Below, one piece after another: positions 4,345-29,536 of a stretch of DNA of 64,000 bases (position 1 is its first letter; each line of letters opens with the position of its first letter). The notes below the pieces were generated by a model. That model was not told the origin of the DNA. It saw nothing but the letters and a program-made list of their open reading frames with translations, and made no database searches. A program made the translations under genes and the position numbers. The stretch spans positions 62,001 through 126,000 of the forward strand of contig CAKZJV010000009.1 in the NCBI GenBank assembly GCA_937120475.1, in the 5' to 3' direction. The stretch is from an uncultured Cryomorphaceae bacterium. Lineage in GTDB: Bacteria > Bacteroidota > Bacteroidia > Flavobacteriales > Schleiferiaceae.

Positions 4345-5583
4345 TTAATGGCTATGCGCTGTAGCACCTTTCTTCATCTCAGAAATCAGGTAATATGCAT
4401 TGTTCCAGGCCACCAGGGTTCCTGCTGGCAGCGGTTCTAATAGTTTAATCTCTATCCATCCGTCTTCCGCCATACCTGTTCGTATTTCTATGGCTTTAAA
4501 CGCCCATTCGGTTTTTCCATCTTCTTCATGGGGCTCCGCAATAAAAATATAGGGCTTGCCTTCTTCCTCTATAATGGCGCTTTCAGGTAATGCCGTTACA
4601 GGGTTGTTATCACCTGTTCTTATTTTACCATTTATATACATTCCCGGGATCAGAAAGTCTTCTTTCTGGTCTATCTCCGCATGCACATGAACGGCTTTAG
4701 GGTTTTGTTCAAATTGCTTACCCACGGAGTATATTTTGGCAGTTAAGGTGCTACCCGGAACTGATTCTACTGTGAAAGATATTTTCTGTCCTTTTTTTAC
4801 TTTATGGATATCCTTTTCAAAGACCATCAGATCGGCATGGATATGGTCGGTATTAACGATCATAAACATATCTTTCTGAGGATCGACATATTGACCGATT
4901 TGCACTTTTACTTTTTCAATGTATCCGTTTATCGGACTCACTACGGGCACATACTGATAAACATCACCGCTTTGGACTTTTTTCACCTCCAGACTAAGCT
5001 GCCTCAGCTGTGCTTCATAACCTTTTACTTCCCCCTTCATGGCTTGGTAGTCGGCCTGAATCTGCTGATAGGTTTTCCCGGAGCCCACTTCTTCTTCGTA
5101 CAACCTTTTCTGCCGTTGATTTTCCTTCTCCAGAAACTGTAACTGACTGTAAGCCCGCACATAATCTGTCTGAAGTGTGCTTAGGTTTGGGTGGGACAAA
5201 TAAGCCAATACCTGGCCTTTGTTTACTTTGTCGCCTTCTATTACCTTAATAGAAGTAACATTTGCCCCCAATATGGCCGTAACGGTGGCTTTGTGCTGTG
5301 GGGGTACTTCCAACTGACCATTGGCCTCCACCACGCCTGAAAGCGACTTATCGGGTAGGATATCTACTTTAATGTCCAAGCTTTCAAATTTCATGTCGGA
5401 AAGGTGGAGTTCGGCCATTCCTTCTTCACTGTGTTCTTTTTCTTCACCTTCGTGCCCGGCCTCGCCCTCACGGTGTTCTTCATGAGTAGCCTCAGCGGAG
5501 TTGTCAGGTGATTTGTTTCCGCAACCTGTAAATACCGATGTGATAAGTACCAGTGCCGCTATATATATGATCTGTTTTTTCAT
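4345..5583 (-). CDS. czcB: RND efflux periplasmic adaptor lipoprotein, CzcB/CusB type
   Basis: The protein has 412 residues. It begins with a lipoprotein signal (lipobox VFTGC, Cys near residue 21), followed by a His/Glu-rich stretch with HEEHREGEAGHEGEEKEH that could bind metal. The body is a membrane-fusion protein: a lipoyl-like half (GQLEVPPQHKATVTAILGA), a helical hairpin, then the second lipoyl half (VVSPINGYIEKVKVQIGQYV) and a beta barrel. It should bridge the RND pump and the outer-membrane channel in the periplasm. It lies 37 bases after the CzcA-TolC gene and just before the Fur-family gene. The assignment to metal rather than drug efflux comes from the partner pump and neighbours. 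Confidence 0.88.
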   Translation of the reverse strand: MKKQIIYIAALVLITSVFTGCGNKSPDNSAEATHEEHREGEAGHEGEEKEHSEEGMAELHLSDMKFESLDIKVDILPDKSLSGVVEANGQLEVPPQHKATVTAILGANVTSIKVIEGDKVNKGQVLAYLSHPNLSTLQTDYVRAYSQLQFLEKENQRQKRLYEEEVGSGKTYQQIQADYQAMKGEVKGYEAQLRQLSLEVKKVQSGDVYQYVPVVSPINGYIEKVKVQIGQYVDPQKDMFMIVNTDHIHADLMVFEKDIHKVKKGQKISFTVESVPGSTLTAKIYSVGKQFEQNPKAVHVHAEIDQKEDFLIPGMYINGKIRTGDNNPVTALPESAIIEEEGKPYIFIAEPHEEDGKTEWAFKAIEIRTGMAEDGWIEIKLLEPLPAGTLVAWNNAYYLISEMKKGATAHSH

Positions 5584-5620: not shown

Positions 5621-8600
5621 TTAGTTTGATGTTTTTAAATAGTATTCCAACTGGTAGCGACTGTCCAGGTAATTACCGAAGGCATTCCAGGAGTCTACTT
5701 CTATGCGAATGGCATCGCGAATGTTTTGCAGGAAGGTGACGTAATCAATGGCACCTTCACGGTAAGCCAAAATGGCTCCGGCTCTTTGCTCTTGTGCCAA
5801 CGGAAGTGCTTTATCCCGGTAGTAGTTCCATGAGTTAAGCCATTTCAGGTACTGCTCTTTCATGCCCTGATAGGCGGCATTCAGTTCCAACTGGTTTTGC
5901 CTCAGGTTTTGACCGGCAATATCGCGCTGGATTTTGGCCGACTGTGTCCTTCCCAGCTCAGGCCCGAAAAACAGGGGAATCCTTATGCCTATCTGGTACT
6001 GATAAAATCCAGATTGCCCGGCAATCTGCTGTCGCCCATACTGCCCCTGTAATTGAGGCAAGAACTGCGAACGCCTCTCTTTTATGGTGGCATCCGCTAC
6101 ATCTACCTGTTGCTTTGATATATTCAGCAAAGGATGGTTCATCAATGAATCAGCTACATAATTGAGCGGTTCGTCCAATTGACTGGTTGGGACATCCGGT
6201 ACGGTATACAGCGTGTCATTGGCAAACCAAAGGTTCAGGCGCTGTAAAGCACTCAGATAATCCCGATAAGCCTGCTCTTTTTGGATTTGTACCTGGTTAG
6301 CCTGGTTGGAAGTAGCCAGGTATTCCAGTTTAGATGTGGCTTCCGTTTCCAAGCGAATCCTGGCCGCTCTTTCAATATCTGCAAATACTGAATCCAACTG
6401 TTCATAAACCTGGTAGTTGTTTTTGGAAGCATATACCATGGCCCAAGCCTGGCTTACTTCCCGCTCCAGTTCAATGACGGATAGGTCAAGTGCCTTCTCG
6501 GCAAGTGCTACCCGTTCTTTTTGCAATTTCAGCCTTGGGGCTATTCCAAACACATCTATCTGTTGTTGTTGAATTCCAAATTGTGTGTAAACTCCATCAG
6601 AGCCATTGCCCACTTCTTCCTTTCCAGTAAATACCTGCGTATTCCCAAAGTCCCAGGCTGTTTTCTTAAGCACTTCCTGGTTTTCTATCTCTAGTCTTGC
6701 CGATTGGATTTTCGGATAGCTTTCTACCGCTCGTTTTCTGGCCTGATCCAGCGTGATCGTTGGCAAACTGTCTTGTGGTTGTTGTTGGTTTTGAGCATTG
6801 GCCAAGGCAGGAAGCCCGAATACACCTCCACAGACCAGCAGTACAATAATCACGTTGGCGTTTGGCCCTTTCAGGCTTTTTCTTTTGTCACTTCTGCTTT
6901 CCACAAAAGTGTAAAGTACCGGAAGCACCACCAAGGTGAGCAGTGTAGCTGTAAGCATTCCACCAATTACCACTGTGGCTAACGGCCTTTGTACCTCAGC
7001 TCCGGCAGACCCTGAAAATGCCATCGGCAAGAAGCCGAATATATCTGTAGTAGCCGTAAGCATGATCGGCCTGATCCTTTCTTTGGTACCGGTAAGAATG
7101 CGGTTTCTGATGCTGGTGACCCCTTCTTCTTTTAGAGAATTGAAGCGGTTGATGAGTACCAGTCCGTTCAACACGGCCACTCCGAATAACACGATAAAGC
7201 CTACACCTGCTGAAATGCTAAAAGGCATATCTCGCATCCACAAAGCAAATACACCCCCAATAGCCGCCAGGGGAATGGCAATGTAAATCATGATGGATTG
7301 GGAGAAGGATCGCAAGGCGAAATACAGCAGCACAAAAATCAGGAAGAGTGCAATGGGCACTACGATCTGCAAGCGGCCTTTGGCCCGTTCAAGGTTTTCA
7401 AACTCACCGCCATAAGTGATGTAATAGCCCGGAGGTAAGTCTAACTGTGCATCCAGCTTTTCTTGTATGTCGTTTACTACTGACTCTACATCACGGCCCC
7501 TGGTATTCACCCCGACATACGTTCTGCGATAGGTATTATCCCGCGAGATCTGCATGGGGCCGGGCACATAGCTGATGTCGGCAACTTCCTTAATAGGTAC
7601 CTGGGTGCCATCCGGCAGGTCGATGTATAAGGTGCGCAGGTCATCTATACTTTTTCGATGTGCTTCATCAAACCGGATTACGAGGTCGAATCGTTTTTCT
7701 CCTTCAAAGATGACACCGGCAACTCCCCCGGCAAACGCAGAACTTACATATTCATTTACCTTTTGAATATCCAATCCGTACTGTGCAATTTTATCACGGT
7801 TATAGCGAACGGTCATTTGAGGTAAACCGGAAGTCCGCTCCGGGTTTACATCACCGGCACCAGGAACTGTTTGTATGATCTCTGCCATTTCCTGTACTTT
7901 GGTAGCCAGGATTTCCAGATCATCACCGTATAACTTCACGGCAATATCTTCCCTTACTCCTTCGAGCAGCTCATTAAACCGCAACTCCACGGGTTGGGTA
8001 AATACTAGGTTCACCCCGGTTAATTGCTCATCCAGTTTGTCTTTAATGGCAGCGATCAAGTCGTCCTTACTTTCAGCGGTAACCCATTTTTCCTTGTCTT
8101 TTTCCAGGATCAGGTACATATCCGCTATATCCATCGGCATGGGGTCGGTAGGGATATCTGCCACACCTATCCGGGCAGTAACTGTTTTTATTTCGGGGAA
8201 ATTATCCAGAAGTATGTTTTCAATTTTTACAGATACTTCTTTGGATTCACTAAGTGAGCTACCCGGCCTGATCAGTGCTTGCATGGCAAGGTCTCCTTCA
8301 TCCAACTGTGGCACAAATTCTCCACCCATCCGGGAAAAAATAAAGCCGGCTGCTACCAGGAGTATAATCCCTGAAATGATAACCAGTGCTTTTAGCTTTA
8401 ATGCGCCTTTGAGTAATGGTAAATAGGCCCATTCTATGCCTCCTATAATTTTATCACTTACTTTCTCTAACCATCTTTCAAACTTTCCAAATCTGTTTTT
8501 TTTGTTTTGGACAGGTTTCATAAACAAGGCCGACATCATGGGCACGTAGGTGAGGCAGAGCACAATGGCACCAATCATGGCAAAGCCAAAGGTGTAGGCC

Positions 8601-10033
8601 ATGGGCTGAAACATTTTACCTTCCACACCGGTAAGAAAAAGGATGGGAGCAAAAACAATCAGAATGATTATTTGCCCAAAAAAGGCCGAACGCATCATGG
8701 TACTGCCAGCATCATAAGCTACTTGATCCATAACACCCTGATCAAACTTTATTTTACCCGATCGTATTCGCTTTTGGATTTCGTAAACTGTTCCTTCAAT
8801 AATAATTACCGCGCCATCAATGATGATCCCAAAGTCTATGGCACCGAGACTCATCAGGTTGGCCCATACATTGAATTGCTTCATCAGGATGAAGGCAAAT
8901 AAGAGGGAAAGTGGGATGGTAGTGGCTGTGATGATACCACCACGCAGACTACCCAGCAGGATAACCAGGGCAAATATCACGATCAGTGCTCCTTCGAGCA
9001 GGTTGCTTTTTACCGTATCGGTTGTCCTTGCTATCAGATCGCTCCGGTCAATAATGGGTGTGATTTGTAAACCTTCCGGAAGTGACTTCTGCACTTCTTC
9101 CATCCGCTCTTTTACATTCTGAATTACAGCATTCGGATTGGAACCTTTCAGCATCATAATAATACCCCCAACGGCTTCTTTTCCGTCCTGGGTAAAAGCA
9201 CCATAGCGCATCTGGCTGCCGAAATGAACTTTCTGGGCTACATCTCCTACCGTAACCGGAATTCCATTTTCATTTTTAATAACGATTTTCCTGATGTCGT
9301 CAAGTGAGCGTATCAGTCCTTCACCCCGGATGAAATTGGACATTCTGTTTTTCTCAATATATGCCCCTCCCGTATTGACATTATTCCTGGCTAAGGCTTC
9401 ATATACCTGAGAGATACTCACATTCATAGCATTGAGTTTCTCGGGATTGATCGCTACTTCATATTGTTTGATGTAGCCACCGAAGGAGTTTACTTCTACA
9501 ACCCCCTCCAGTAAAGTCAATTGTCTTTTTACGATCCATTCCTGGATAGTACGCAACTCCATGGGGGAATAGAGTGAATCATAGCCTTCCTGTGGCTGAA
9601 TGGTATACTCATAAATCTGCCCTAAGCCGGTGGAAATAGGCCCCATTGATGGGCTACCAAATTTTTCAGGTATGGTCTCCTGTAATTCATTCAGCTTTTC
9701 CTGCACCAGTTGCCGGGGCAGGTAGGTGCCCATATCGTCTTCAAAAACAATGGTGACTACTGACAGCCCGAACCTGGAAATGGAGCGTATTTCATCTACA
9801 CCGGGGAGATTACCCATAGCCAACTCCACCGGATAGGTCACGAACTGTTCTATATCTTCAGTGGCCAGGTTGGGCGATACTGTAATTACCTGCACCTGGT
9901 TATTGGTAATGTCCGGTACGGAACCCAGGTTTACCGTGTTCATGGAGTAGATGCCCATAGCTATGAGTGCCAGGGTGAGCAGACCCACAATGAACTTATT
10001 CTTTATGGAAAAAGAAATGATTTTATTGATCAT
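5621..10033 (-). CDS. czcA: CzcA/CusA heavy-metal RND pump fused to a TolC-type outer-membrane channel
   Basis: The protein has 1470 residues. Residues 1 to about 1045 are a complete HME-type RND transporter with twelve predicted membrane segments and the HME signature GAIDFGIIIDGAVIIIEG in the proton-relay helix. Residues about 1058-1083 form a short hydrophobic stretch ending in ALANAQ that looks like a second, internal signal sequence. Residues about 1085-1470 are a TolC/CzcC-like outer-membrane factor (ITLDQARKRAVESYPKI and paired helical repeats). Such fusions occur in Bacteroidota metal pumps. With the CzcB adaptor it would form a trans-envelope exporter for Co/Zn/Cd or Cu/Ag. The reading frame is open throughout, so the fusion is real in this sequence; whether the protein is later cleaved is unknown. 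Confidence 0.92.
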   Translation of the reverse strand: MINKIISFSIKNKFIVGLLTLALIAMGIYSMNTVNLGSVPDITNNQVQVITVSPNLATEDIEQFVTYPVELAMGNLPGVDEIRSISRFGLSVVTIVFEDDMGTYLPRQLVQEKLNELQETIPEKFGSPSMGPISTGLGQIYEYTIQPQEGYDSLYSPMELRTIQEWIVKRQLTLLEGVVEVNSFGGYIKQYEVAINPEKLNAMNVSISQVYEALARNNVNTGGAYIEKNRMSNFIRGEGLIRSLDDIRKIVIKNENGIPVTVGDVAQKVHFGSQMRYGAFTQDGKEAVGGIIMMLKGSNPNAVIQNVKERMEEVQKSLPEGLQITPIIDRSDLIARTTDTVKSNLLEGALIVIFALVILLGSLRGGIITATTIPLSLLFAFILMKQFNVWANLMSLGAIDFGIIIDGAVIIIEGTVYEIQKRIRSGKIKFDQGVMDQVAYDAGSTMMRSAFFGQIIILIVFAPILFLTGVEGKMFQPMAYTFGFAMIGAIVLCLTYVPMMSALFMKPVQNKKNRFGKFERWLEKVSDKIIGGIEWAYLPLLKGALKLKALVIISGIILLVAAGFIFSRMGGEFVPQLDEGDLAMQALIRPGSSLSESKEVSVKIENILLDNFPEIKTVTARIGVADIPTDPMPMDIADMYLILEKDKEKWVTAESKDDLIAAIKDKLDEQLTGVNLVFTQPVELRFNELLEGVREDIAVKLYGDDLEILATKVQEMAEIIQTVPGAGDVNPERTSGLPQMTVRYNRDKIAQYGLDIQKVNEYVSSAFAGGVAGVIFEGEKRFDLVIRFDEAHRKSIDDLRTLYIDLPDGTQVPIKEVADISYVPGPMQISRDNTYRRTYVGVNTRGRDVESVVNDIQEKLDAQLDLPPGYYITYGGEFENLERAKGRLQIVVPIALFLIFVLLYFALRSFSQSIMIYIAIPLAAIGGVFALWMRDMPFSISAGVGFIVLFGVAVLNGLVLINRFNSLKEEGVTSIRNRILTGTKERIRPIMLTATTDIFGFLPMAFSGSAGAEVQRPLATVVIGGMLTATLLTLVVLPVLYTFVESRSDKRKSLKGPNANVIIVLLVCGGVFGLPALANAQNQQQPQDSLPTITLDQARKRAVESYPKIQSARLEIENQEVLKKTAWDFGNTQVFTGKEEVGNGSDGVYTQFGIQQQQIDVFGIAPRLKLQKERVALAEKALDLSVIELEREVSQAWAMVYASKNNYQVYEQLDSVFADIERAARIRLETEATSKLEYLATSNQANQVQIQKEQAYRDYLSALQRLNLWFANDTLYTVPDVPTSQLDEPLNYVADSLMNHPLLNISKQQVDVADATIKERRSQFLPQLQGQYGRQQIAGQSGFYQYQIGIRIPLFFGPELGRTQSAKIQRDIAGQNLRQNQLELNAAYQGMKEQYLKWLNSWNYYRDKALPLAQEQRAGAILAYREGAIDYVTFLQNIRDAIRIEVDSWNAFGNYLDSRYQLEYYLKTSN

Positions 10034-10122: not shown

Positions 10123-10434
10123 TTAAACCTTCGGGGGCTCTAAAAAAGATTCCTTAAACCCTTCAGAAAGAGAGCAGGCATGACCCGTAAGCGGATCTTC
10201 GAAGGAAAGGGGCTGGGAATGCAATCTGTATGATTGGTGCACAACCAGGTGGCTATGACAGCAGTGGCATGTGCATAGGGGTGAACATAAGTCTTCAGTA
10301 GAATTATGATCGTGATTATCTCCGTCATCACTTATAGAGACTTCTATGTGCTCTTCTACCGGTTGATTGTCAGCACAGGGAAGTACTGACAAACCCAGGA
10401 TCCAAAAGGATAATATAATTGATAGAATTCGCAC
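10123..10434 (-). CDS. DUF6660-like secreted His/Cys-rich small protein
   Basis: The protein has 103 residues with an N-terminal signal-like segment (MRILSIILSFWILGLSVLPC). A central acidic, metal-ligand-rich stretch follows, with DDGDNHDHNS and then LCSPLCTCHCCHSH. This layout matches DUF6660, a Bacteroidota family found just upstream of metal RND pumps. It is probably exported to the periplasm, where its Cys/His cluster could bind Cu or Zn; the function is not established. The start is a GTG at 10434. It is the first gene of the CzcA-TolC operon, with an 89-base gap to the pump. A TAACTTTG element that could be a -7 box lies only a few bases upstream. Confidence 0.7.
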   Translation of the reverse strand: MRILSIILSFWILGLSVLPCADNQPVEEHIEVSISDDGDNHDHNSTEDLCSPLCTCHCCHSHLVVHQSYRLHSQPLSFEDPLTGHACSLSEGFKESFLEPPKV

Positions 10435-10545: not shown

Positions 10546-10857
10546 TTAACTTCTGCAGGCCTCGGCACATTTACGGCAGGCTTCGGCACAGGCTTTACAA
10601 TGGTCGTGATGGTCAGCATGTTTCTCGCATTCTTTGACACAGGCTTCACATACTTCAGCACATAATGCCTTGAGTTTTGATGCAAAAGCACTGTTACGCG
10701 CTTCCAGTTTGGCAGTAATACTACACAGGTCGGAGCAATCTAAACAAGCCCTCAGGCAGGCTTCTATTTTAGCATCACCGCCCAGGCATCTATCAATACA
10801 AATTTCGCAGGCCTTTATACAGGCCAGGCATTCGTCTATACATTTTTCATCTATCAT
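10546..10857 (-). CDS. Four-helix-bundle copper-storage protein, Csp-like
   Basis: The protein has 103 residues, 19 of them Cys, arranged along amphipathic helices as repeated CxxxC or CxxC pairs (CIDECLACIKACEICIDRC near the start, HCKACAEACRKCAEAC at the end). This is the pattern of the four-helix-bundle copper-binding proteins (DUF326, Csp family), which hold many Cu(I) ions inside the bundle. No signal peptide is seen, so it resembles the cytosolic Csp3 type. It is the last gene of the copA unit, 26 bases after the HMA chaperone and before a clear terminator. Buffering of cytosolic Cu(I) in support of CopA is the likely role. Confidence 0.9.
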   Translation of the reverse strand: MIDEKCIDECLACIKACEICIDRCLGGDAKIEACLRACLDCSDLCSITAKLEARNSAFASKLKALCAEVCEACVKECEKHADHHDHCKACAEACRKCAEACRS

Positions 10858-10883: not shown

Positions 10884-11096
10884 TTAATGAATGGGTTCGG
10901 CCTTGAACCCAATTTTATCGAGTGTAGAAATCACTTGCCCTTCAGTGGCTCCATTACTTTTTACGGTTAGCACCTTATCGGGATTTTTAAGATCTACTTC
11001 CCATTTTTCAATACCGTCCGCTTCATTGAGACGGGGACTCACTTTTTCCAAACAGCCCGTACATTTTATCGAAGTTTTAAACTTTAGCGTTTCCAT
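10884..11096 (-). CDS. HMA-domain copper chaperone, CopZ-like
   Basis: The protein has 70 residues and is a single heavy-metal-associated domain with the metal motif KCTGC near residues 11-15 and the expected beta-alpha-beta-beta-alpha-beta pattern. Proteins of this size and motif bind one Cu(I) and hand it to the N-terminal domain of CopA. It lies between the ferredoxin and the Csp-like protein in the copper unit, about 90 bases after the ferredoxin start region, so it may have its own ribosome-binding context. Specificity for copper is inferred from the neighbours. Confidence 0.88.
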   Translation of the reverse strand: METLKFKTSIKCTGCLEKVSPRLNEADGIEKWEVDLKNPDKVLTVKSNGATEGQVISTLDKIGFKAEPIH

Positions 11097-11187
11097 TTTA
11101 TCTGAATTTTAATTGATTCAAATCTATCCGTTCCAGACCTGGTAACTGTTATAGATTTTTGTTCTTTTTTTATGAAGTTTTGACCCA

Positions 11188-11475
11188 TCAGGTATAAGAG
11201 AGAACGATGTGATCACTCACCGGGAGGCTTTGACACAACAAGACATAACCTTCTTTAAGCTTCTCCTCATTAAGCGCATAGTTTGCTTTCATATGTACTT
11301 CTCCTTCCAGTAATTTGGCCGCACATTTTCCACACAGGGCCTGTTTGCAAGAATGGGGTAGCGGGAGTTTTTTTTCCAATCCGGCTGTAAGTATGGTTTG
11401 GGATTCAGACACTTCTAACTGAAGTGCATCCTTCTTCAAGCCTCTAAGATGTACCAGTGTCTTTTTCATACCCAT
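11188..11475 (-). CDS. [2Fe-2S] plant-type ferredoxin linked to copA
   Basis: The protein has 95 residues. It carries the plant-type ferredoxin cluster motif: HSCKQALCGKCAAKL gives C-x4-C-x2-C, and LLCQS supplies the fourth Cys. The stop of copA and this ATG overlap as TAATG, so the two are almost certainly translated in tandem. No reductase or oxygenase partner lies nearby. Placement between copA and a copper chaperone suggests a role in copper homeostasis, for example a redox step or a cluster that senses copper damage, but no function has been shown by the sequence. A second in-frame ATG lies two codons in. Confidence 0.85.
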   Translation of the reverse strand: MGMKKTLVHLRGLKKDALQLEVSESQTILTAGLEKKLPLPHSCKQALCGKCAAKLLEGEVHMKANYALNEEKLKEGYVLLCQSLPVSDHIVLSYT

Positions 11476-13727
11476 TAAAGTGTAGCGGTTTTCAGGCGCA
11501 GGCTGTTGGCCACTACCGATACGGAACTGAAAGCCATTGCCATACCCGCGATCATAGGGTCTAACAGAAAGCCGTTGACGGGGAACAGAACCCCTGCGGC
11601 TATGGGAATGCCGATGATGTTGTAAATAAAAGCCCAGAACAGGTTCTGACGAATGCCCAATACCGTTTTTTTAGAGAGTTTCAGTGCTTTGGGAATAGAC
11701 TGAAGATCGGAAGTGATGAGGGTTATTTTGGCTACGTCCATCGCAATATCTGATCCGTGCCCCATCGCAATGCTTACATCAGCTTGGGCCAGGGCATGCG
11801 AATCATTGATACCATCGCCCACCATTGCCACGATCTTCCCTTCGGTTTGCAGTTCTTTGACAAAATCGGCTTTGTCGGAAGGCAGTACTTCTGCTTTGAA
11901 ATGCTTTAACCCCACCTGGCTAGCTACTGCCTGAGCCGTTTGCCTATTGTCCCCGGTAAGCATATACACTTCGATACCCCGGTCTTGCAGGGTTTCAATA
12001 GCCTGCCTGGATGTTCCTTTGATCTTATCGGCAATGGCCAGCACGGCTAATGCCTGATGTTGATTGGCGAAGAAGATAACCGTTTTAGCTTCTTCCCGCA
12101 GGGCTTTTGCTCTTTTGTCAAGTTCATCACTCACGCTGACATTATGCTCAGCGAGCAATTTTTGGTTACCGATATAGAACATCGTGTCATCTGAACCCAC
12201 AGCCTCAACTCCCCGCCCGGTAATGCTGTTAAACCGGGAGATTGTTGTTGGCTTAATGCCTTCCTCCTTTAGTTTTTGAACCACAGCTTCGGCCAATGGG
12301 TGTTCGGATTGAGCTTCCATGGCTAATAATATGGGCTTGAGTGTTTCGGATGGCTGTTTGTCTCCCCAAATAACATCGGTTACCACAGGTTTCCCTTCCG
12401 TAATGGTACCTGTTTTATCCAATACCACTGCATTCACTTTATGGCCCAATTCCAGGCTTTCGGCATCTTTGATCAGAATGTTGTTTTCGGCTCCTTTGCC
12501 TACCCCTACCATAATGGCAGTGGGCGTTGCCAGTCCGAGAGCACAAGGGCAGGCGATCACGAGTACGGCTACAGAGGTCAGCAAAGCATGGGTAAAGGCA
12601 TCATCCCCACCTGCAACCATCCAAACAATAAAAGTGACGATAGAGATGGTTATCACCACGGGCACAAAGATCCCGGCTATTTTATCGACCAGCTTTTGTA
12701 CCGGGGCTTTACTGCCCTGGGCTTCCTGTACCATTTTTATGATTTGCGACAAGAGGGTTTCTCCCCCCACTTTTTCTGCCGTAAAGCGGAAACTGCCTTT
12801 TTGGTTTACCGTACCGGCAAATACTTTTTCACCGTTGGTTTTTTCTACAGGAATAGGTTCTCCTGTGATCATACTTTCGTCTACATAGGAGCTACCTTCG
12901 GTTACGGTGCCATCTACCGGTATTTTCTCCCCCGGACGCACCATAATGGTATAGCCCGGCTGTACCGAGGCAATGGGCATTTCCACTTCTTCGCCTTCTA
13001 TAATTACTTTGAGGGTTTTGGGTTGTAAGCCCATCAGTTTTTTAATGGCGGAAGAGGTATTGGACTTGGCTTTTTCTTCCAGTAGTTTGCCCAGTGAAAT
13101 AAAGGTGATGATCACCGTAGCGGCTTCATAGTATACATGGGGATGGATGCCCCGGCTATGCCAAAACTCAGGAAAGAGTGTATTGAACAGGCTAAACAGA
13201 AAGGCAATCCCGGTACTGAGGGCTACCAGGGTGTCCATATTGGCTTTACCATGTTTGGCTTGTTTAACCGCGTTGACAAAAAAACTGCGGCCAAACCAAA
13301 ACAATACAGGGACGGTCAGTACCATGGAGATCCAACGCCCGGCTTCCCAATCCATAAAGAACATACCGATGACAAATACTGGCAGGGTGAGTATGGCTGA
13401 CCAGAGGGTCCGCTTTTTAATGTCTCGATAATGTTGCTGTTGCAATTGTTCCTGGGCTTCAGCCGGGTCTTCGGCATCTATAATAAGGTCGTAGCCTACC
13501 GACTGTAAGGCCTGGCGAAGGTCTTCGGAGCTTACCGAAGGGGTATGCTCTACCAAAACGGAACTACTGGCAAAATTTACACTGGCTTTATGTACGCCTT
13601 CGGTATGCCCAAGGATTGACTCTACGCTGGAGGCACAAGCAGCACAGGTCATACCTGTTACAGGAAACGCTTGTTTTATGGTTTCTTCCTTTTGTGTTTC
13701 CGGTGCTTTTATATCCATCGTCTCCAT
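11475..13727 (-). CDS. copA: Cu(I)-exporting P1B-type ATPase CopA
   Basis: The protein has 750 residues. One N-terminal HMA domain carries MTCAAC (about residues 25-30). Eight membrane segments surround the core. The membrane metal site is [11 protein letters not shown], the phosphorylation motif is DKTGT, followed by SEHPLA and GDGIND. The last membrane segments have [14 protein letters not shown] and [15 protein letters not shown], with the Asn, Tyr, Met and Ser residues typical of Cu(I) pumps. It exports Cu(I) from cytosol to periplasm. It lies 91 bases after the HMA-AraC regulator and overlaps the ferredoxin start. ATG at 13727 is used; another in-frame ATG is three codons downstream. Confidence 0.95.
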
Positions 13728-13818
13728 AACTGCCTTTGCTTTTATTGAACACTACAAAAGTCGCAAGCAAGCGAGGGTAAGCTGTTACAGAATCTTGATA
13801 AAGGTTTATATGATTTTG

Positions 13819-14391
13819 TCAGAGGGCATCCAGGGAAGAATGGCCAGGCTTTTTAGATTTTTTAAAAGCCGTAGGGGTCATACCTGTTTCTTTTTTGAAC
13901 TGGGAAGAAAGGTGAGCGGTACTACTGTAGTTCATCTGAAAGGCAATCTCGGAAAGGGTCATTTCATCATAAAACAGGAGTTCCTTTACGCGTTCTGTTT
14001 TCTGCCGCGTAATGAATTTTTCAATGGTAATGCCTTCTACGGAGGAAAACAGGCGGCTCAGATAGCTGTAGTCATGATGCAACTGATCGGACAGAAAAGT
14101 GGAAAAGTTGACTTGCAGGGATTGCTGTTTATGGTGTACCTGTTCTATCACCAGCGCTTTGATCTTGGAGATCAGGGCCGACCTACCGCTTTCCAGCAAT
14201 TCAAAACCCAGGGCCCGGAGCTTTTGAGAAAGTTCCGTTTGCTGGTGAGAGGTTAATTCTTTGTTCAGGCTTACTTCCCCCAGTTCTATCTGCGTATAGT
14301 CAGCGTCCAGTTCATGGAGTACCTCCTCCACCGCTTTAATACAACGGGGGCAAACCATGTTCTTAATATGAAGGAGCGGTTTATTCTGCAT
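13819..14391 (-). CDS. AraC-family regulator with N-terminal HMA-like metal-binding domain
   Basis: The protein has 190 residues. Residues 1-70 resemble an HMA domain with a CxxC motif (MVCPRCIKAVEEVL). Residues about 95-185 are an AraC-type double helix-turn-helix, with DYSYLSRLFSSVEGITIEKF and the signature ERVKELLFYDEMTLSEIAFQMNYSS. A metal-binding module joined to a DNA-binding module makes a one-component metal-responsive activator likely. It is encoded directly upstream of copA on the same strand, 91 bases apart, and probably controls copA and its followers. Which metal it senses is inferred (Cu or Ag) from the CxxC and from copA. It lacks the large ligand-binding domain of classical AraC proteins. 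Confidence 0.88.
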   Translation of the reverse strand: MQNKPLLHIKNMVCPRCIKAVEEVLHELDADYTQIELGEVSLNKELTSHQQTELSQKLRALGFELLESGRSALISKIKALVIEQVHHKQQSLQVNFSTFLSDQLHHDYSYLSRLFSSVEGITIEKFITRQKTERVKELLFYDEMTLSEIAFQMNYSSTAHLSSQFKKETGMTPTAFKKSKKPGHSSLDAL

Positions 14392-15418: not shown

Positions 15419-15604
15419 ATGCTGAGCGTAGAAGAATGCCGTAGAATTTTCGAAAAACACGGAGAACACCACTCTGAAGAAGAAATCGCGCAGATCAGAA
15501 GAGTACTGTATCAACTAGCCAGGCATCAAATCAATGATTTAGAAAATCAGGAAAATGAAGAATGTCATACTTTACACAAGAGTCTCCACAGACGAACAGG
15601 CTGA
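15419..15604 (+). CDS. Small protein overlapping the start of the serine recombinase gene
   Basis: The product has 61 residues (MLSVEECRRIFEKHGEHHSE and onward), starting at ATG 15419. It is charged, helical and soluble. The N-terminal half resembles short proteins commonly encoded just before large serine recombinases in Bacteroidota, with an EECRRIFEKHG / EEIAQIRRVLYQLA pattern. The last 16 codons overlap the recombinase start by 50 bases in another frame. An upstream in-frame start at 15344 exists but would add a low-quality Cys-rich leader. A role as accessory or directionality factor is possible but unproven; a small DNA-binding protein is the main alternative. Confidence 0.6.
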   Translation: MLSVEECRRIFEKHGEHHSEEEIAQIRRVLYQLARHQINDLENQENEECHTLHKSLHRRTG

Positions 15605-17144
15605 TAAAGGCTTCAGTTTGCGTTATCAAAAAGAAATCTTGTCTCGGTACTGTGAATTGAAGTCCCAAACCATTCTTCAACATTTTCAGGATGATTTTTC
15701 TGCCAAAACTTTTGAACGTCCAGAATGGAAAAAGTTGTTGGATTACTGTAAGGCTCATCGTAAAACAGTAGATACCATACTCTTCACAAAGTGGGACCGG
15801 TTTTCACGTAATGCAGCAGAAGCCTATCAAGTGATTGCGCAGTTAAGACGAATGGGCATAGAAGTCAATGCCATAGAACAACCGCTTGACCTTGACCAAC
15901 CTGACAATAAAATTATGCTGGCTATTTATCTGGCCGTACCTGAAGTAGAGAATGACAAAATTTCCATTCGGGTTACCGAAGGCTCCCGCAGAGCTAATAA
16001 GGAAGGCTGCTGGACTACTACTGCTCCGCTGGGCTACGTCAATAAACGAACCCCGGATGGTAAATCCAGTCTGGAGCCTTCTGATAGAGCACATTTGGTC
16101 AAGGAAGCATTGGAAATATTGGCCACGACCAGTAAACCTGTAGATGAAGTCCGAAGGATTATGCTCACCAAAGGAATGAAAATATCACGCTCCCGCTTTC
16201 ATGCACTCATTCGTAATAGAGTTTATATAGGACAAGTAAAAGTTCCTGCTTATAAAAATGAAGACGAGACCTATGCTGAAGGCCTACATGCAGCCATAGT
16301 GCCTGACCAGCTCTTTTACAGTGTACAAGAAAGGTTGAACAATCGCAAAAAGATCATGCGAAAATGGTCACTTAAAAATGAGAGCTTCCCACTAAGAGGA
16401 CATATTCAATGCTCTCGATGCGATAGGCCTTTAACGGGCAGTAAGTCCAAAAGCCGGTCGGGTAAGTATTACTATTATTATCATTGTCGGAATGGTTGTC
16501 TTGAGAGATTTCAGGTAAGTGATGCCCATCAAATGTTAGAAAATTATCTATCACAACTTACCCTAGCCCCTGGTAAAGCCGAAGCTTACTTAAGTATATT
16601 GAAAGACCTTTATGGGGCATCTAAGGTGGGAAGGCAACTGAAAATTAAAAAATTGCAGGAAGAAATTAAAAAGCTCAGGCAAACGATAGATACGGCAGAA
16701 GACAATCTTTTCCAAGGAAATATTGATCAGGCAAGCTTTAACAAGGGAAAGGCAAGATATTCGGCTACCATTATTGAACTGGAACAGCAGTTAAACCACC
16801 TTAAAACATCTTCCACCAATTTCACACAGAAAATAAAGAAAGCACTAGCAGTGGTAACTAACCTGAAGGTCTTTTATCAACAAGCCTCATGGCAGACCAA
16901 ACAAACCATTTTAGGTTTAACATTTCCGGGAAAGTTGGTTTTTGAGAAAAACGAGTGTCAAACCTTAAGATTAAACACGGTTTTAGATCACATATATCAG
17001 ACAACCAACAACTTGGTGAAAAGCAAAAAAGGACAAGCTCATAAAATTAAGAGCTTGTCCTCTGGAGTGATCCCGGCAGGATTCGAACCTGCGACCGTCT
17101 GCTTAGAAGGCAGATGCTCTATCCAGCTGAGCTACGAGACCTGA
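15555..17144 (+). CDS. Large serine recombinase (integrase-type) running into tRNA-Arg
   Basis: The open frame has 529 codons. Residues 1-150 are the resolvase catalytic domain, with the nucleophile Ser in YTRVSTDEQ and the Arg-rich KWDRFSRNAAEAY. A recombinase domain follows (about 160-270, with PLGYVNKRTPDGK). A zinc ribbon with CSRCDRPLTG and YHCRNGC is next, then a coiled-coil region (about 350-430). Such proteins integrate or excise mobile elements at specific sites. The last codons are odd: after about residue 490 the frame passes through a minus-strand terminator and the whole tRNA-Arg gene in antisense, giving the peptide AGFEPATVCLEGRC. This tail is probably created by insertion next to the tRNA. 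The recombinase may have had a different end in the free element. Confidence 0.88.
   Translation: MKNVILYTRVSTDEQADKGFSLRYQKEILSRYCELKSQTILQHFQDDFSAKTFERPEWKKLLDYCKAHRKTVDTILFTKWDRFSRNAAEAYQVIAQLRRMGIEVNAIEQPLDLDQPDNKIMLAIYLAVPEVENDKISIRVTEGSRRANKEGCWTTTAPLGYVNKRTPDGKSSLEPSDRAHLVKEALEILATTSKPVDEVRRIMLTKGMKISRSRFHALIRNRVYIGQVKVPAYKNEDETYAEGLHAAIVPDQLFYSVQERLNNRKKIMRKWSLKNESFPLRGHIQCSRCDRPLTGSKSKSRSGKYYYYYHCRNGCLERFQVSDAHQMLENYLSQLTLAPGKAEAYLSILKDLYGASKVGRQLKIKKLQEEIKKLRQTIDTAEDNLFQGNIDQASFNKGKARYSATIIELEQQLNHLKTSSTNFTQKIKKALAVVTNLKVFYQQASWQTKQTILGLTFPGKLVFEKNECQTLRLNTVLDHIYQTTNNLVKSKKGQAHKIKSLSSGVIPAGFEPATVCLEGRCSIQLSYET
17021..17060 (-). terminator. Terminator of tRNA-Arg, inside the recombinase reading frame
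   Basis: On the minus strand GGACAAGCTC and GAGCTTGTCC form a perfect 10-base stem with a 10-base A/T loop, followed by TTTTTT. It lies 7 bases after the tRNA 3' end and is the natural stop of tRNA transcription. It is fully contained in the recombinase frame on the other strand. Confidence 0.9.
17068..17141 (-). tRNA. tRNA-Arg (anticodon TCT)
   Basis: The 74-base gene folds as a tRNA. The acceptor stem is GGTCTCG with CGGGATC and discriminator A. The D arm contains AGCTCAGCTGGATAGAGC. The anticodon arm is TCTGC-CTTCTAA-GCAGA with anticodon TCT, which reads AGA. The T arm has GCAGGTTCGAATCCTGC. CCA is not encoded. The gene abuts the serine recombinase and seems to be the target or boundary of the metal island. 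Two degraded copies of its 5' half lie upstream. Confidence 0.95.
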
Positions 17145-17206: not shown

Positions 17207-17266
17207 GAACCTGCGTCCGTCCCGATAGAATCGGGATGCTCCCTGATACAGCTGAGCTACGAGACC
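17207..17266 (-). pseudogene. Truncated tRNA-Arg copy with altered anticodon arm
   Basis: The segment matches the intact tRNA-Arg from its 5' end (GGTCTCGTAGCTCAGCTG) to GCAGGTTC in the T arm, then diverges. The D loop is enlarged. The anticodon arm is replaced by a TCCCGAT-TCT-ATCGGGA palindrome that still places TCT in a seven-base loop. The T arm and acceptor 3' strand are missing, so it cannot be a functional tRNA. It is best read as a scar of an earlier insertion or duplication event. Confidence 0.65.
17220..17236. repeat. TCCCGAT-type palindrome, copy 1
   Basis: TCCCGAT-AGA-ATCGGGA is a perfect 7-3-7 palindrome in the anticodon-arm position of the truncated tRNA-Arg copy. A close relative lies at 17296-17312. 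Short palindromes of this kind recur between genes in Bacteroidota genomes; their copy number elsewhere cannot be judged here. Confidence 0.6.
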
Positions 17267-17295
17267 TATTCTTGTTCTCGTGGCGAAGCTGCCTG

Positions 17296-17324
17296 TCCCG
17301 ATACAATCGGGAAGCTACGAGACC
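17296..17324 (-). pseudogene. Second tRNA-Arg 5' fragment with TCCCGAT palindrome
   Basis: On the minus strand the first 12 bases of tRNA-Arg (GGTCTCGTAGCT, 17313-17324) are followed directly by the palindrome TCCCGAT-TGT-ATCGGGA (17296-17312). Nothing else of the tRNA remains. Together with the copy at 17207-17266 and the intact gene, it forms a row of three tRNA 5' ends within 260 bases. Confidence 0.55.
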
Positions 17325-17383
17325 TGAACGGGGCTGCAAAAGTACTATCTTTTTGAAAAATAACCTGACGGTAAAAAATTGCT

Positions 17384-26720: not shown

Positions 26721-27755
26721 ATGGAACGTTTTTTTATCTGGTGCGCAGGAAGCGACCGGTCCATCCTGGATCATTGTACAAAAGGAGAGCGAAACAAGCA
26801 CGTTGGTTTCGGAACCCTGGTTTTAATACCGGCTATTCTGGCCCTGGTATCCATGACCTATGCCCTGTCCACCGTGGAAGTCCTCTCAGCCCAGCCCCTT
26901 TGGTGGTACCTGGGTGGTATAGTGTGGGCTTTGATTATTTTTAGTTTTGACCGCTTTATAGTTTCCACTCACATCCGCAAGCGTAGCAATAAGGCTGAAC
27001 TACAAAACCCGGCTTTTTACCTGCGTTTTGTGTTTGCCTTTATATTAGGTATCGTAATATCCCACCCCTTAGTATTGCTTTATTTTGATGGCAGTATCGA
27101 AGATCGCATTACCGCTGATGTTCGCAATTACCGGGATGCTATAGAAGCAGATTACGAATCTCAAACCGAAGCCTTGCAAAGGCGGATAGACCGGATGGAC
27201 AGTGTGTACCGGTACCAGGAACAGTTGCGCAATGCACAGGCGGACATTGTAGCCCGCGAAATTGACGGTGAAGTACTACGCAACCAGCGGGGAGAAATCC
27301 TTACTACCGGCCTGGCCGGGAAAGGTCCTTCCGCTGAAAATAAAATACGGCACCTTCAGCAATTGGAAAAAGATTTACGGCAAACACGCTTGAATGACAG
27401 CCTGCAAAAAATTGAACTTTATGCCGAAATGGATCAACTGAAGGCACGCAGCGACAGCCTCGTTCAGGCCTACAGCGTTTCCTACGATTACCTACGCAGG
27501 GAACTGGCTCTTGAAGATCTTAAAGATGAACACAGTGTTGTGGGGCTTACCCAATGGTTTTTGATGCTGCTGTTCGTGTTGGTGGATATACTACCGGTAA
27601 CCTTTAAAACCTTTGCCCCCTTCGGAATGTACGACCGTATGCGGCATGATGACCAGGAGCTATTGGCTAGCCTGGACCCGGAGGAAAGGCAGAAGGCCTT
27701 GCAGAAAGCTTACAACCGGGCCAGTGTGATAGACAGCAAAACACGTCAAGCCTAA
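26721..27755 (+). CDS. DUF4407 membrane protein
   Basis: The protein has 344 residues. It opens with FFIWCAGSDRSILDHCTKGE, then has two hydrophobic helices (about residues 28-75), FSFDRFIVSTHIRK and a third membrane helix (about 100-122). A long coiled coil runs from about 145 to 260, and a C-terminal membrane helix (LTQWFLMLLFVLVDILPVTFK) follows. This is the layout of DUF4407, a family of unknown function common in Bacteroidota. It converges with the MutS-like gene, the two overlapping by four bases. Confidence 0.88.
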   Translation: MERFFIWCAGSDRSILDHCTKGERNKHVGFGTLVLIPAILALVSMTYALSTVEVLSAQPLWWYLGGIVWALIIFSFDRFIVSTHIRKRSNKAELQNPAFYLRFVFAFILGIVISHPLVLLYFDGSIEDRITADVRNYRDAIEADYESQTEALQRRIDRMDSVYRYQEQLRNAQADIVAREIDGEVLRNQRGEILTTGLAGKGPSAENKIRHLQQLEKDLRQTRLNDSLQKIELYAEMDQLKARSDSLVQAYSVSYDYLRRELALEDLKDEHSVVGLTQWFLMLLFVLVDILPVTFKTFAPFGMYDRMRHDDQELLASLDPEERQKALQKAYNRASVIDSKTRQA

Positions 27756-29536
27756 ATTACCCCGTGGCTACGCATAAGCTCGGTGGCATTGGGAGTGGTG
27801 CAGATACCTTCCCTTAAAAGATAATCGAAGGTAAGTTCGCCATCTTTCACTTGACTTTCAAAATAGTAATCCTTAAAGATACCAGGCTCCTGCTTCGCCA
27901 GATCTGCAATGTCAATATCGTGCGTGGCAATAATGCCCCGGGCCTCAAAGCTTCCGATCTTTTGCATGAAAAGGCGTGTACCGTTGCGCTTGTCATCGGA
28001 ATTGGTACCGCGCAATATTTCATCCAGTAAAACCATTTTTACTGCCTCACCTTCCAATTCTTGTTTTATCCGCTTAAGACGCAACACCTCCGCCTGAAAA
28101 TAGGATTCTTCCCGTTCCAGGGAATCAACCAGCTTCATACTGGTTAAAAGAGTAAAGGGGTAGCTTTTAAAGCGAAGCGAGCACACCGGTGCCCCAGCCC
28201 GCATTAAAACCAGGTTAATACCAATGGTTTTAAGAAAGGTGCTTTTGCCAGACATATTACTCCCCGTAAGGATCATGTACTTGTAGCCATCGGTACTGAG
28301 CGAGTTGGCGACCCTTTTCTGCGGTGCAATCAGGGGGTGCGCGATGCCTTCGGCTTCCAGCTTGGGTGCATCTGCTACCTCAGGGTAGGTAAAGTCTGGG
28401 TTATTGGCCGCGTAATTGGAAAGGCTTACCAATTCGTCCATTTCAGTAACCGCACTGAGCCATTGTATAATCTGACCTCCGTGTTCCTTCTTCCATCGGT
28501 AAAGTTCATTCAAAACGTGCAGGTGGTACAGGTATAGTCCATTGGTTAAGATGAGAGCCACCACATTATTCATCTGGTCGAAACCATCCAATATACGGCC
28601 CAGTCGGTACAAGGCTTTGCTGGCCGTTTGCCCACGGGTAGAAAGCTGACCGGCAATATTTTGCAGATATGCGGCCCCGAACGCTTGCCTTTCCACGGAA
28701 GCAATGAGCTCGGCATAAATACGCAGAGAACGGGTAATGCCATTCAGTTGGTTGTACTCCTTTTTGATATGACGGAACTGACTGAATACCAAAGCTATAT
28801 TCAGGCCCATGCCGTACATCCACCATTCAAAGTGTTGCGGGTTGGGGTAAAACACAAAATGTAAGCCCAGCCCGATGGCTATTATGGCTAAAATAAAACG
28901 GGTGGCAGGGTGTAGTAAAACCCGTGCAGCCGATGGTTTAGAGCCTTTTAGCCACAACTTGAGCTTGTTCTGCAGTTGAGGATCTTCCTCCTCTTCCAAA
29001 CCAGCCGCAATAAAGTTTTGCCGCCAGTCCAAGAGGGGTACCAACTCTTTTATGGCCTCCTGCCGGGGGCCGATACTTTGAGATGGACCTGGAGCGCTTA
29101 AGGTTTGCGCCAAACGTTCCTCACCACTGCGCGTTGCCGCCCGGTTGATATGATAAAAAAGGGAGTGCGACCCGAAAATATCCAGGTCACTGCTGTACAG
29201 GTGCTGTGCATCTCTGAAACGTTCACCATTTTCCCAGTCCACCACTTCACCCTCCAAAAATTTCACTTCTTTTTGGTTGAGCGAAATAAGGCGGTTGTAG
29301 CGTTGTTTTTGTTTTTTGAGATTGGTATGGCGTACAATGAGCACCAGGAAAAAGGTTAGAAAAAGTATAGCAGCCCAAATCCCATAAATATTGCCGAGAG
29401 AGAAGAATATGTAAATACCGGCTACCACGGCCAGTAGGCTCAAAAGCCGGCCTGCGGAAAACCAGCCACTTCTTTGGTTGGCCTCCTCTAAAAAACCGGC
29501 ATACTTGATTAACTGTTTTTGATAATTTTCTTGCAT
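27752..29536 (-). CDS. Membrane-anchored MutS-like ATPase
   Basis: The protein has 594 residues. Two N-terminal membrane helices (about 30-70) and another pair (about 210-255) come before a MutS-type lever/core region. The ATPase has Walker A LTGSNMSGKSTFLKTIG (about 420-435), the MutS Walker B VLLDEILRGTNS and the switch IATHDI. The mismatch-recognition domain of true MutS is absent. Such membrane MutS-like proteins are widespread in Bacteroidota, but their role is unknown; DNA repair by direct mismatch recognition is unlikely. It is transcribed towards the DUF4407 gene. Confidence 0.85.
   Translation of the reverse strand: MQENYQKQLIKYAGFLEEANQRSGWFSAGRLLSLLAVVAGIYIFFSLGNIYGIWAAILFLTFFLVLIVRHTNLKKQKQRYNRLISLNQKEVKFLEGEVVDWENGERFRDAQHLYSSDLDIFGSHSLFYHINRAATRSGEERLAQTLSAPGPSQSIGPRQEAIKELVPLLDWRQNFIAAGLEEEEDPQLQNKLKLWLKGSKPSAARVLLHPATRFILAIIAIGLGLHFVFYPNPQHFEWWMYGMGLNIALVFSQFRHIKKEYNQLNGITRSLRIYAELIASVERQAFGAAYLQNIAGQLSTRGQTASKALYRLGRILDGFDQMNNVVALILTNGLYLYHLHVLNELYRWKKEHGGQIIQWLSAVTEMDELVSLSNYAANNPDFTYPEVADAPKLEAEGIAHPLIAPQKRVANSLSTDGYKYMILTGSNMSGKSTFLKTIGINLVLMRAGAPVCSLRFKSYPFTLLTSMKLVDSLEREESYFQAEVLRLKRIKQELEGEAVKMVLLDEILRGTNSDDKRNGTRLFMQKIGSFEARGIIATHDIDIADLAKQEPGIFKDYYFESQVKDGELTFDYLLREGICTTPNATELMRSHGVI

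Follow-up and report, generated by a model that had tools for sequence, protein, structure and literature searches.

Among described sensors, CueR, CsoR and CopY have DNA-binding folds and metal sites unrelated to those of the regulator analysed here, which would likewise sense cytoplasmic Cu(I) and control copA and copZ. The two halves of the protein have closer counterparts. Its two-HTH DNA-binding domain is common to the AraC/XylS activators (AraC, SoxS, Rob), which carry a sugar-binding domain, or none, where the regulator has a metallochaperone fold. The CopZ/Atx1 chaperones (PF00403) share with it a beta-alpha-beta-beta-alpha-beta fold and an MxCxxC motif on the first loop; the regulator differs from them in being fused to a DNA-binding domain, in falling below the Pfam curated cut-off and in reading NMVCPRC for GMxCxxC, the usual Gly being Asn.

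ArsR-SmtB proteins belong to a fold and family other than the regulator's. Two of them in Bizionia, of the same phylum, are candidate regulators of cytoplasmic copper: a 2024 study of the B. argentinensis genome proposed them by sequence only, as BxmR-like proteins keeping two BxmR-site cysteines (PMC11213822). According to the same study, conserved copper sites are missing from the MerR and CopY-type homologues that it found, and its accessible text mentions neither AraC nor CsoR (PMC11213822). Also from the phylum are a ZntR homologue of Riemerella, a metal-related regulator for which zinc is named (PMC11960050), and the MerR-like MliR of Bizionia, connected with iron (PMC9478572); the titles of both papers name neither copper nor AraC. 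AraC regulators and one-component metal sensors are known kinds, and it is their combination, with its operator, that is apparently undescribed: no description of an HMA-AraC regulator or of its operator was found in the open PMC literature, a collection outside which most subscription papers lie.

Predicted regulator and copper-efflux locus

An earlier note on this DNA had claimed that an HMA-like CxxC domain is joined to an AraC helix-turn-helix within 190 residues. In the window, the whole 64,000-nucleotide stretch analysed, the regulator ORF is open from an ATG start (Table 1), and its C-terminal half is unambiguously an AraC HTH (HTH_18, E=1.8e-17, 63.8 bits against a Pfam cut-off of 33.6), a domain present in 21/21 aligned proteins, the regulator and 20 relatives. 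The N-terminal half lies below the curated cut-off of PF00403 (E=0.021, 15.7 bits against 24.8), and just 4 of the 21 aligned proteins match this family at E<=0.1; HMA membership on the Pfam score alone was rejected for these reasons. The AlphaFold2 model, built from 21 aligned sequences with a mean pLDDT of 86.9, predicts the beta-alpha-beta-beta-alpha-beta order for residues 6-66 (strand 6-10, helix 15-27, strands 32-36 and 39-42, helix 48-60, strand 64-66), after which come a linker helix (70-87) and those of the HTH. Foldseek matches the N-terminal part to CopZ, Atx1, GolB and HAH1 (target TM 0.61-0.72, probability 0.99-1.00, E 0.02-0.07), and the nine matches of the model at E<=0.001 are all AraC-type proteins, the best at E 9e-5. 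When a profile of the 21 sequences is compared with PDB sequences, CopZ is retrieved as 1k0v (E=0.002) and 2qif (E=0.0024), the remaining N-domain matches listed to E=1 all being HMA proteins by name. C14 and C17 are invariant in the 21-row alignment and fall, in the model, in the first loop of a predicted ferredoxin-like fold. The N-terminal half is thereby confirmed, at the level of a predicted structure, as CopZ/Atx1-like, the fold being better evidence than the Pfam score, and the domain make-up claimed in the note is borne out by HTH_18, the AlphaFold2 fold, Foldseek and the profile search.

Table 1. Features of the regulator locus and related sites. Positions are those of the window unless a contig or locus is named.
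Feature	Position	Strand	Evidence
HMA-AraC regulator, 190 aa	13819..14391	minus	ORF, Pfam, AlphaFold2, Foldseek
Metallochaperone-like (HMA) sensor domain, residues 5-66	14194..14379	minus	AlphaFold2 model, Foldseek, profile search
CPRC metal-site motif, residues 14-17, with the sole cysteines of the protein	14341..14352	minus	
AraC-type DNA-binding domain, residues 96-178	13858..14106	minus	Pfam HTH_18, AlphaFold2
Putative copA operator, R1 13818-13806 and R2 13797-13785, 21 bp apart	13785..13818	minus	matrix score 69.4
Imperfect -7 element of copA promoter, GACTTTTG for TAHHTTTG	13755..13762	minus	TTTG 39 bp past R2 start
copA, copper-type P1B ATPase	11475..13727	minus	Pfam, NCBIfam
2Fe-2S ferredoxin-like protein, after copA	11188..11475	minus	Pfam Fer2
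Second putative operator, before CopZ-like gene, 3 mismatches, TTTG at +39	11149..11182	minus	matrix score 29.7
CopZ-like HMA protein, 70 aa, CTGC	10884..11096	minus	22.9 bits, just under Pfam cut-off 24.8
Csp-like four-helix copper-storage protein	10546..10857	minus	Pfam DUF326 above cut-off; NCBIfam TIGR04401 E=1.4e-15, under its cut-off
DUF6660 protein	10123..10434	minus	Pfam
RND (ACR_tran) permease fused to outer-membrane efflux protein, 1470 aa	5621..10033	minus	Pfam
Third putative operator, TTTG at +39	contig C9 55402-55435		matrix score 25.0
TGCA-repeat members, Zn group	L176, L182, L183, L186, L187, L192-L194, L197, L243		by eye
Members with receiver-like next gene	L209, L212, L218, L219, L221, L225, L227, L229, L231-L233, L235, near position 5000		

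The position of the gene upstream of copA, also claimed in the note, was recovered, copA being the next gene downstream at a distance of 91 bp. The regulator, copA, 2Fe-2S, CopZ-like, Csp-like, DUF6660 and RND/outer-membrane efflux genes all lie on one strand, the copA product carries an N-terminal HMA domain (Pfam), and the gene set behind the regulator reads as a copper-efflux locus. The last of these genes, at 5621-10033, holds a whole RND permease and an outer-membrane efflux protein in a single ORF. Elsewhere in the window, a large serine recombinase ORF at 15555-17144 extends into an opposite-strand gene for tRNA-Arg (tct) at 17067-17141, and fragments like a tRNA end are visible by eye at about 17230-17330, resembling an integration site.

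That the regulator is unlike CueR and CsoR, as had been stated, agrees with the family searches, which matched neither TIGR02044 nor PF02583: CueR (TIGR02044) is absent from its NCBIfam matches, among the best 25 of 30 families, and CsoR (PF02583, DUF156) is not among its three Pfam matches to E=1. Neither family supplies a ready copper sensor elsewhere in the genome. No CueR above cut-off is present, the best scores of 29.4 and 22.6 bits against 147.4 belonging to other proteins, and the one CsoR-fold protein (PF02583), a separate gene beside a mercuric-reductase-like gene, has, by eye, no Cys or His in the family-aligned stretch, its cysteines lying further on. CueR or CsoR as the copper sensor of this genome was rejected on these observations.

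Tandem-repeat operator and promoter geometry

The motif was sought in 36 araC-copA regions, namely 34 loci, the window and L001, which were picked for araC before copA and include several close pairs. De novo search of 35 araC-copA gaps returned a motif scoring 285.8, compared with 65-77 in six shuffled sets at width 22, the shuffled runs having had fewer restarts. The region upstream of araC scored 86.7 against 70-80 in shuffles; autoregulation via this operator is unsupported, the upstream motif scoring barely above the shuffled sets. The araC-copA motif is a tandem direct repeat, CAAAATnnTRTAA occurring twice, 21 bp apart. This spacing was the best in the range 15-31 in 36/36 regions, with at most 4 mismatches in all, a match reached at 21 bp by an average of 0.08 of 36 shuffles. 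The repeat begins within 8 bases of the araC end in 24 of the 36 regions, and in the window the copA operator starts directly behind the araC stop codon; its score of 69.4 is that of a site among those used to train the matrix, and 20 shuffled windows reached 12.1 at most.

The position of the repeat relative to the promoter is equally constant, TTTG beginning exactly 39 bp past the start of the second repeat in 33/36 regions. This tetranucleotide ends the consensus TAHHTTTG, T-12 to G-5, described for Flavobacterium johnsoniae promoters (PMC6847099), and in that numbering the repeat cores span roughly -68 to -56 and -47 to -35. The absence of a -33 element here is weak evidence, because, in the accessible text of the same source, a -33 motif is hardly evident in Flavobacterium promoters generally (PMC6847099). 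In the promoters analysed here, conservation does not extend to the first T of TAHHTTTG. AraC itself, at araI1-I2, acts as a class II activator from tandem direct half-sites with a 21-bp spacing, immediately ahead of the promoter; the repeats here, conserved in sequence, have a like position. By analogy, the arrangement of repeat and -7 element fits a class II activator position.

The matrix, built from 35 distinct sites, was applied to 44 nearest-relative loci outside it, 32 of which score at least 20 compared with 0/44 shuffles; the number of independent cases is below 32, because near-identical loci are included and one site equals that of two training loci. The gene after these 32 sites encodes an HMA protein in 19 loci, CopA in 10, an xHYCGG protein in 2 and another protein in 1. 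The 12 held-out loci without an operator site are mostly those where copA had not been detected. In a broad sample of 148 genomes drawn evenly across Bacteroidota, scores of at least 20 occur near the member's own gene in 17/100 members with CxxC, 1/17 with SxxC and 2/15 others (shuffles 0/264), and scores of at least 15 in 28/100, 1/17 and 2/15, respectively. Since no more than 17 of the 100 CxxC members reach the strict score, the operator is most uniform near the lineage of the window.

A strict pattern of repeats plus TTTG was found at 38 sites in 22 of the 148 genomes, the reversed control giving 3 matches, and all 22 genomes are among the 71 that carry a family member (Fisher 1.3e-8). 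Of these 38 sites, 17 have a CxxC member and 8 a no-Cys member no more than 5 kb away, and 13 are near no fetched member. The operator type thus tracks the DNA-binding half and not copper as such, as members without CxxC score and 8 of 38 sites lie near no-Cys members; on these sequence grounds, the sensor half would decide what the operator responds to. Three genomes of the same order (G084, G025, G057) each have several pattern sites far from fetched members and together account for 11 of these 13, suggesting that some other member has a wider regulon there.

The genome of the window contains six pattern matches with at most 3 mismatches, the reversed pattern giving none, and two of the six lie in the window where 0.01 is expected. 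Three have TTTG at +39, and all three stand before copper-efflux genes (scores 69.4, 29.7 and 25.0). The third, on contig C9, is followed by genes for a small xHYCGG protein, a CusA/CzcA-family permease (TIGR00914, above cut-off), an outer-membrane-efflux-like protein and a CusB/CzcB-like adaptor. The remaining three matches have no TTTG at +39, and no site scores above zero in their loci. Further along from the Cus-type cluster (L280, G000:C9:46000-62000) are the CsoR-fold protein and, by eye, a mercuric-reductase-like protein and a membrane protein in which two HMA motifs can be read.

Relatives in Bacteroidota and their possible metals

In genome contigs 495 relatives were recovered, the best 80 of which were taken as the nearest-relative set. 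CxxC is present in 80/80 of these, as CPRC in 79 and CQRC in 1, some being near-identical copies. In 36 of the 80 loci, a match to CopA of the window starts no more than 900 bp from the beginning of araC. The RND permease of the window is matched, sometimes weakly, in the fetched stretch of 25 of the other 44 nearest-relative loci. At 1e-20, plasmid matches comprise 30 records, 26 of them annotated as AraC-family or helix-turn-helix proteins, from genera that we take to be Bacteroidota throughout.

In the broad sample, a match was defined as E<=1e-20 to a profile from the window's relatives, so that the sample tilts toward the window's side of the family. On this basis the family occurs in 71/148 genomes; members with CxxC are present in 69 of these, and in 54 of the 69 such a member lies near a P1B ATPase (window gene counted in both). 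The 132 members, in 125 regions, divide into 100 with CxxC, 17 with SxxC and 15 others, two of the latter having no alignable CxxC region and one of these two being a piece of an interrupted paralogue. Neighbours were flagged by a simple motif and by phmmer, for which proteins of the window served as queries, an approach that misses genes unlike these. A P1B ATPase within about 5 kb was flagged for 66/100 CxxC members and for 0/17 SxxC and 0/15 other members (Fisher 3e-12, relatedness ignored), and any of P1B, HMA, RND or Csp genes for 74/100, 0/17 and 0/15, respectively. In a quick tree, from which three rows were omitted (two without an alignable CxxC region, one partial), all 29 rows without CxxC fall in one 35-row branch with support of 99 and no ATPase neighbour, together with six CxxC rows reading CIRC, CVRC, CLRC and, in three cases, CESC. 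Many separate losses of the first Cys together with the ATPase neighbour were rejected, as one branch holds all 29 rows; the loss is therefore mostly one event, and the association of CxxC with an ATPase, strong as it is, represents few independent changes and is largely a clade-level difference.

The residues between the cysteines differ with the neighbouring ATPase, the type of which was assigned from motifs that we take to indicate zinc (CPCGLVIS) and cobalt (SPC). Within the broad sample, copper-type ATPases accompany 11 of 14 CPRC members, the other 3 having no ATPase nearby, and 15 of 20 CNRC members, with 1 unclassed and 4 without. CSRC members have the copper type in 3/8 cases and none in 5. 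CDRC members are mixed: 9/21 have the copper type alone, 6 have none, and for 2 the locus includes a zinc-type ATPase as well as a CSHC member. CSHC members are found by the zinc type in 9/10 cases, 4 of these also by the cobalt type, and by the copper type in none. Thus, metal choice may vary within the family, the switch to CSHC being one evolutionary event because all members with CSHC or CEHC fall into a single clade, drawn from one family. In 10 of these 12 members, a direct repeat with TGCA in at least one half-site is seen by eye behind the araC stop, no such repeat being visible in L179 and L195, and a crude self-match scan gives 21 bp as the best offset in 7 of the 12 rows and other offsets in 5. 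A TGCA half-site in the place of TRTAA in this group is suggestive only.

Members of the side branches have other neighbours. Directly after 12 of the 15 members without CxxC or SxxC is a receiver-like protein of about 150 residues (LADDDEDDRLFF and variants), of CheY type by eye, and the SxxC members L137, L139 and L140 are followed by proteins of 900-1090 residues with, by eye, a PAS-like start, which hints at a shift from metal sensing to signalling. The window's own genome holds paralogues of several kinds. One (L238, G000:C7, near 1463000) reads MVSLRC, its first Cys being Ser, with no metal genes flagged nearby. A second CPRC protein (L239, G000:C9:32653-33192) of about 300 residues has a C-terminal extension with CIECKDLC and lies beside a His-rich protein. 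A CSRC paralogue (L240/L084, G000:C8, near 27550-28098) is broken by an in-frame TAA, its neighbours by eye being an HMA protein and an ArsR-type-like regulator.

Proposed mechanism and its alternatives

Combined, the predicted fold, the invariant CxxC, the phylum-wide neighbourhood and, above all, the conserved operator before copA and two more copper-efflux gene sets support the proposal of the earlier note that the gene encodes a one-component copA regulator with an HMA-type sensor half. We consider it likely that the regulator is a one-component protein which senses Cu(I) in the cytoplasm and activates transcription. The metal would be bound by C14 and C17 on an exposed loop of the CopZ-like domain, and this loading would be what alters the activity of the protein. 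Cu(I) might, as the earlier note suggested, be handed over by the HMA protein encoded downstream; the sequence itself shows just that the gene for this protein has an operator copy of its own. The loaded regulator would bind directly to, or act from, the two tandem half-sites, 21 bp apart, that cover roughly -68 to -56 and -47 to -35, and would recruit RNA polymerase to the target promoter. Three sets of genes are the predicted targets: copA and the ferredoxin gene after it; the copZ-like gene and those that follow it (Csp-like, DUF6660 and RND/outer-membrane efflux); and the second Cus-type cluster.

The position of a site before copper genes does not by itself separate activation from repression, and the same regulator could use the same sites as a repressor which leaves the operator on binding Cu(I). 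This is unlikely, as the repeats, at -68 to -35 in the Flavobacterium numbering, are located upstream of the -7 element and not over the start site, and their tandem 21-bp geometry would resemble that from which AraC acts at araI1-I2 as a class II activator. The physiological signal sensed by CxxC might also be a different metal, thiophilic or divalent (Ag, Au, Hg, Zn or Cd), a reading which could draw on the CSHC relatives beside ATPases of zinc (CPCGLVIS) and cobalt (SPC) type, as assigned from their motifs, and on genes on contig C9 that by eye resemble mercury detoxification. We regard it as quite unlikely for the regulator of the window, given that 11 of 14 CPRC members adjoin copper-type ATPases and the other 3 none, and that CopZ-like and Csp-like copper-storage proteins are encoded in its own locus.

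A redox-switch or vestigial role for CxxC, with copper control exerted via or beside these operators by another regulator (the other CPRC protein of this genome, a two-component system, an ArsR-SmtB protein), is in our view very unlikely. Candidates exist: the genome has three further full-length relatives, one of them stop-interrupted, the CPRC paralogue L239 could share the sites, and ArsR-SmtB proteins have been proposed for cytoplasmic copper in Bizionia (PMC11213822). Against them stand the placement of the operator within 8 bases of the araC end in 24 of 36 araC-copA regions and the presence of the family in every one of the 22 pattern-bearing genomes. An activator that responds to Cu(I) remains the preferred reading.

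A broader account may be drawn from the family, and we hold it to be evenly poised. One-component metal sensors made of a metallochaperone fold and an AraC domain would occur throughout Bacteroidota, their metal being set by the two middle residues of the cysteine motif (copper with CxRC, zinc or cobalt with CSHC) with a matched change of half-site from TRTAA to TGCA; a side branch would have lost the cysteines and partnered with receiver- and PAS-domain proteins.

Copper pumps are present in Bacteroidota, in which cytoplasmic copper sensing is poorly settled. With members in 71 of 148 genomes, a defined operator and a defined promoter position, the family looks like a widespread metal-sensor type of this phylum, and it would add a type of sensor in which the trafficking fold is itself the switch. 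The series CPRC, CNRC, CDRC, CSHC and none offers natural variants for the study of metal choice and, if the proposed mechanism is true, the repeats and the -7 element would form a basis for copper-inducible promoters in Bacteroidota.
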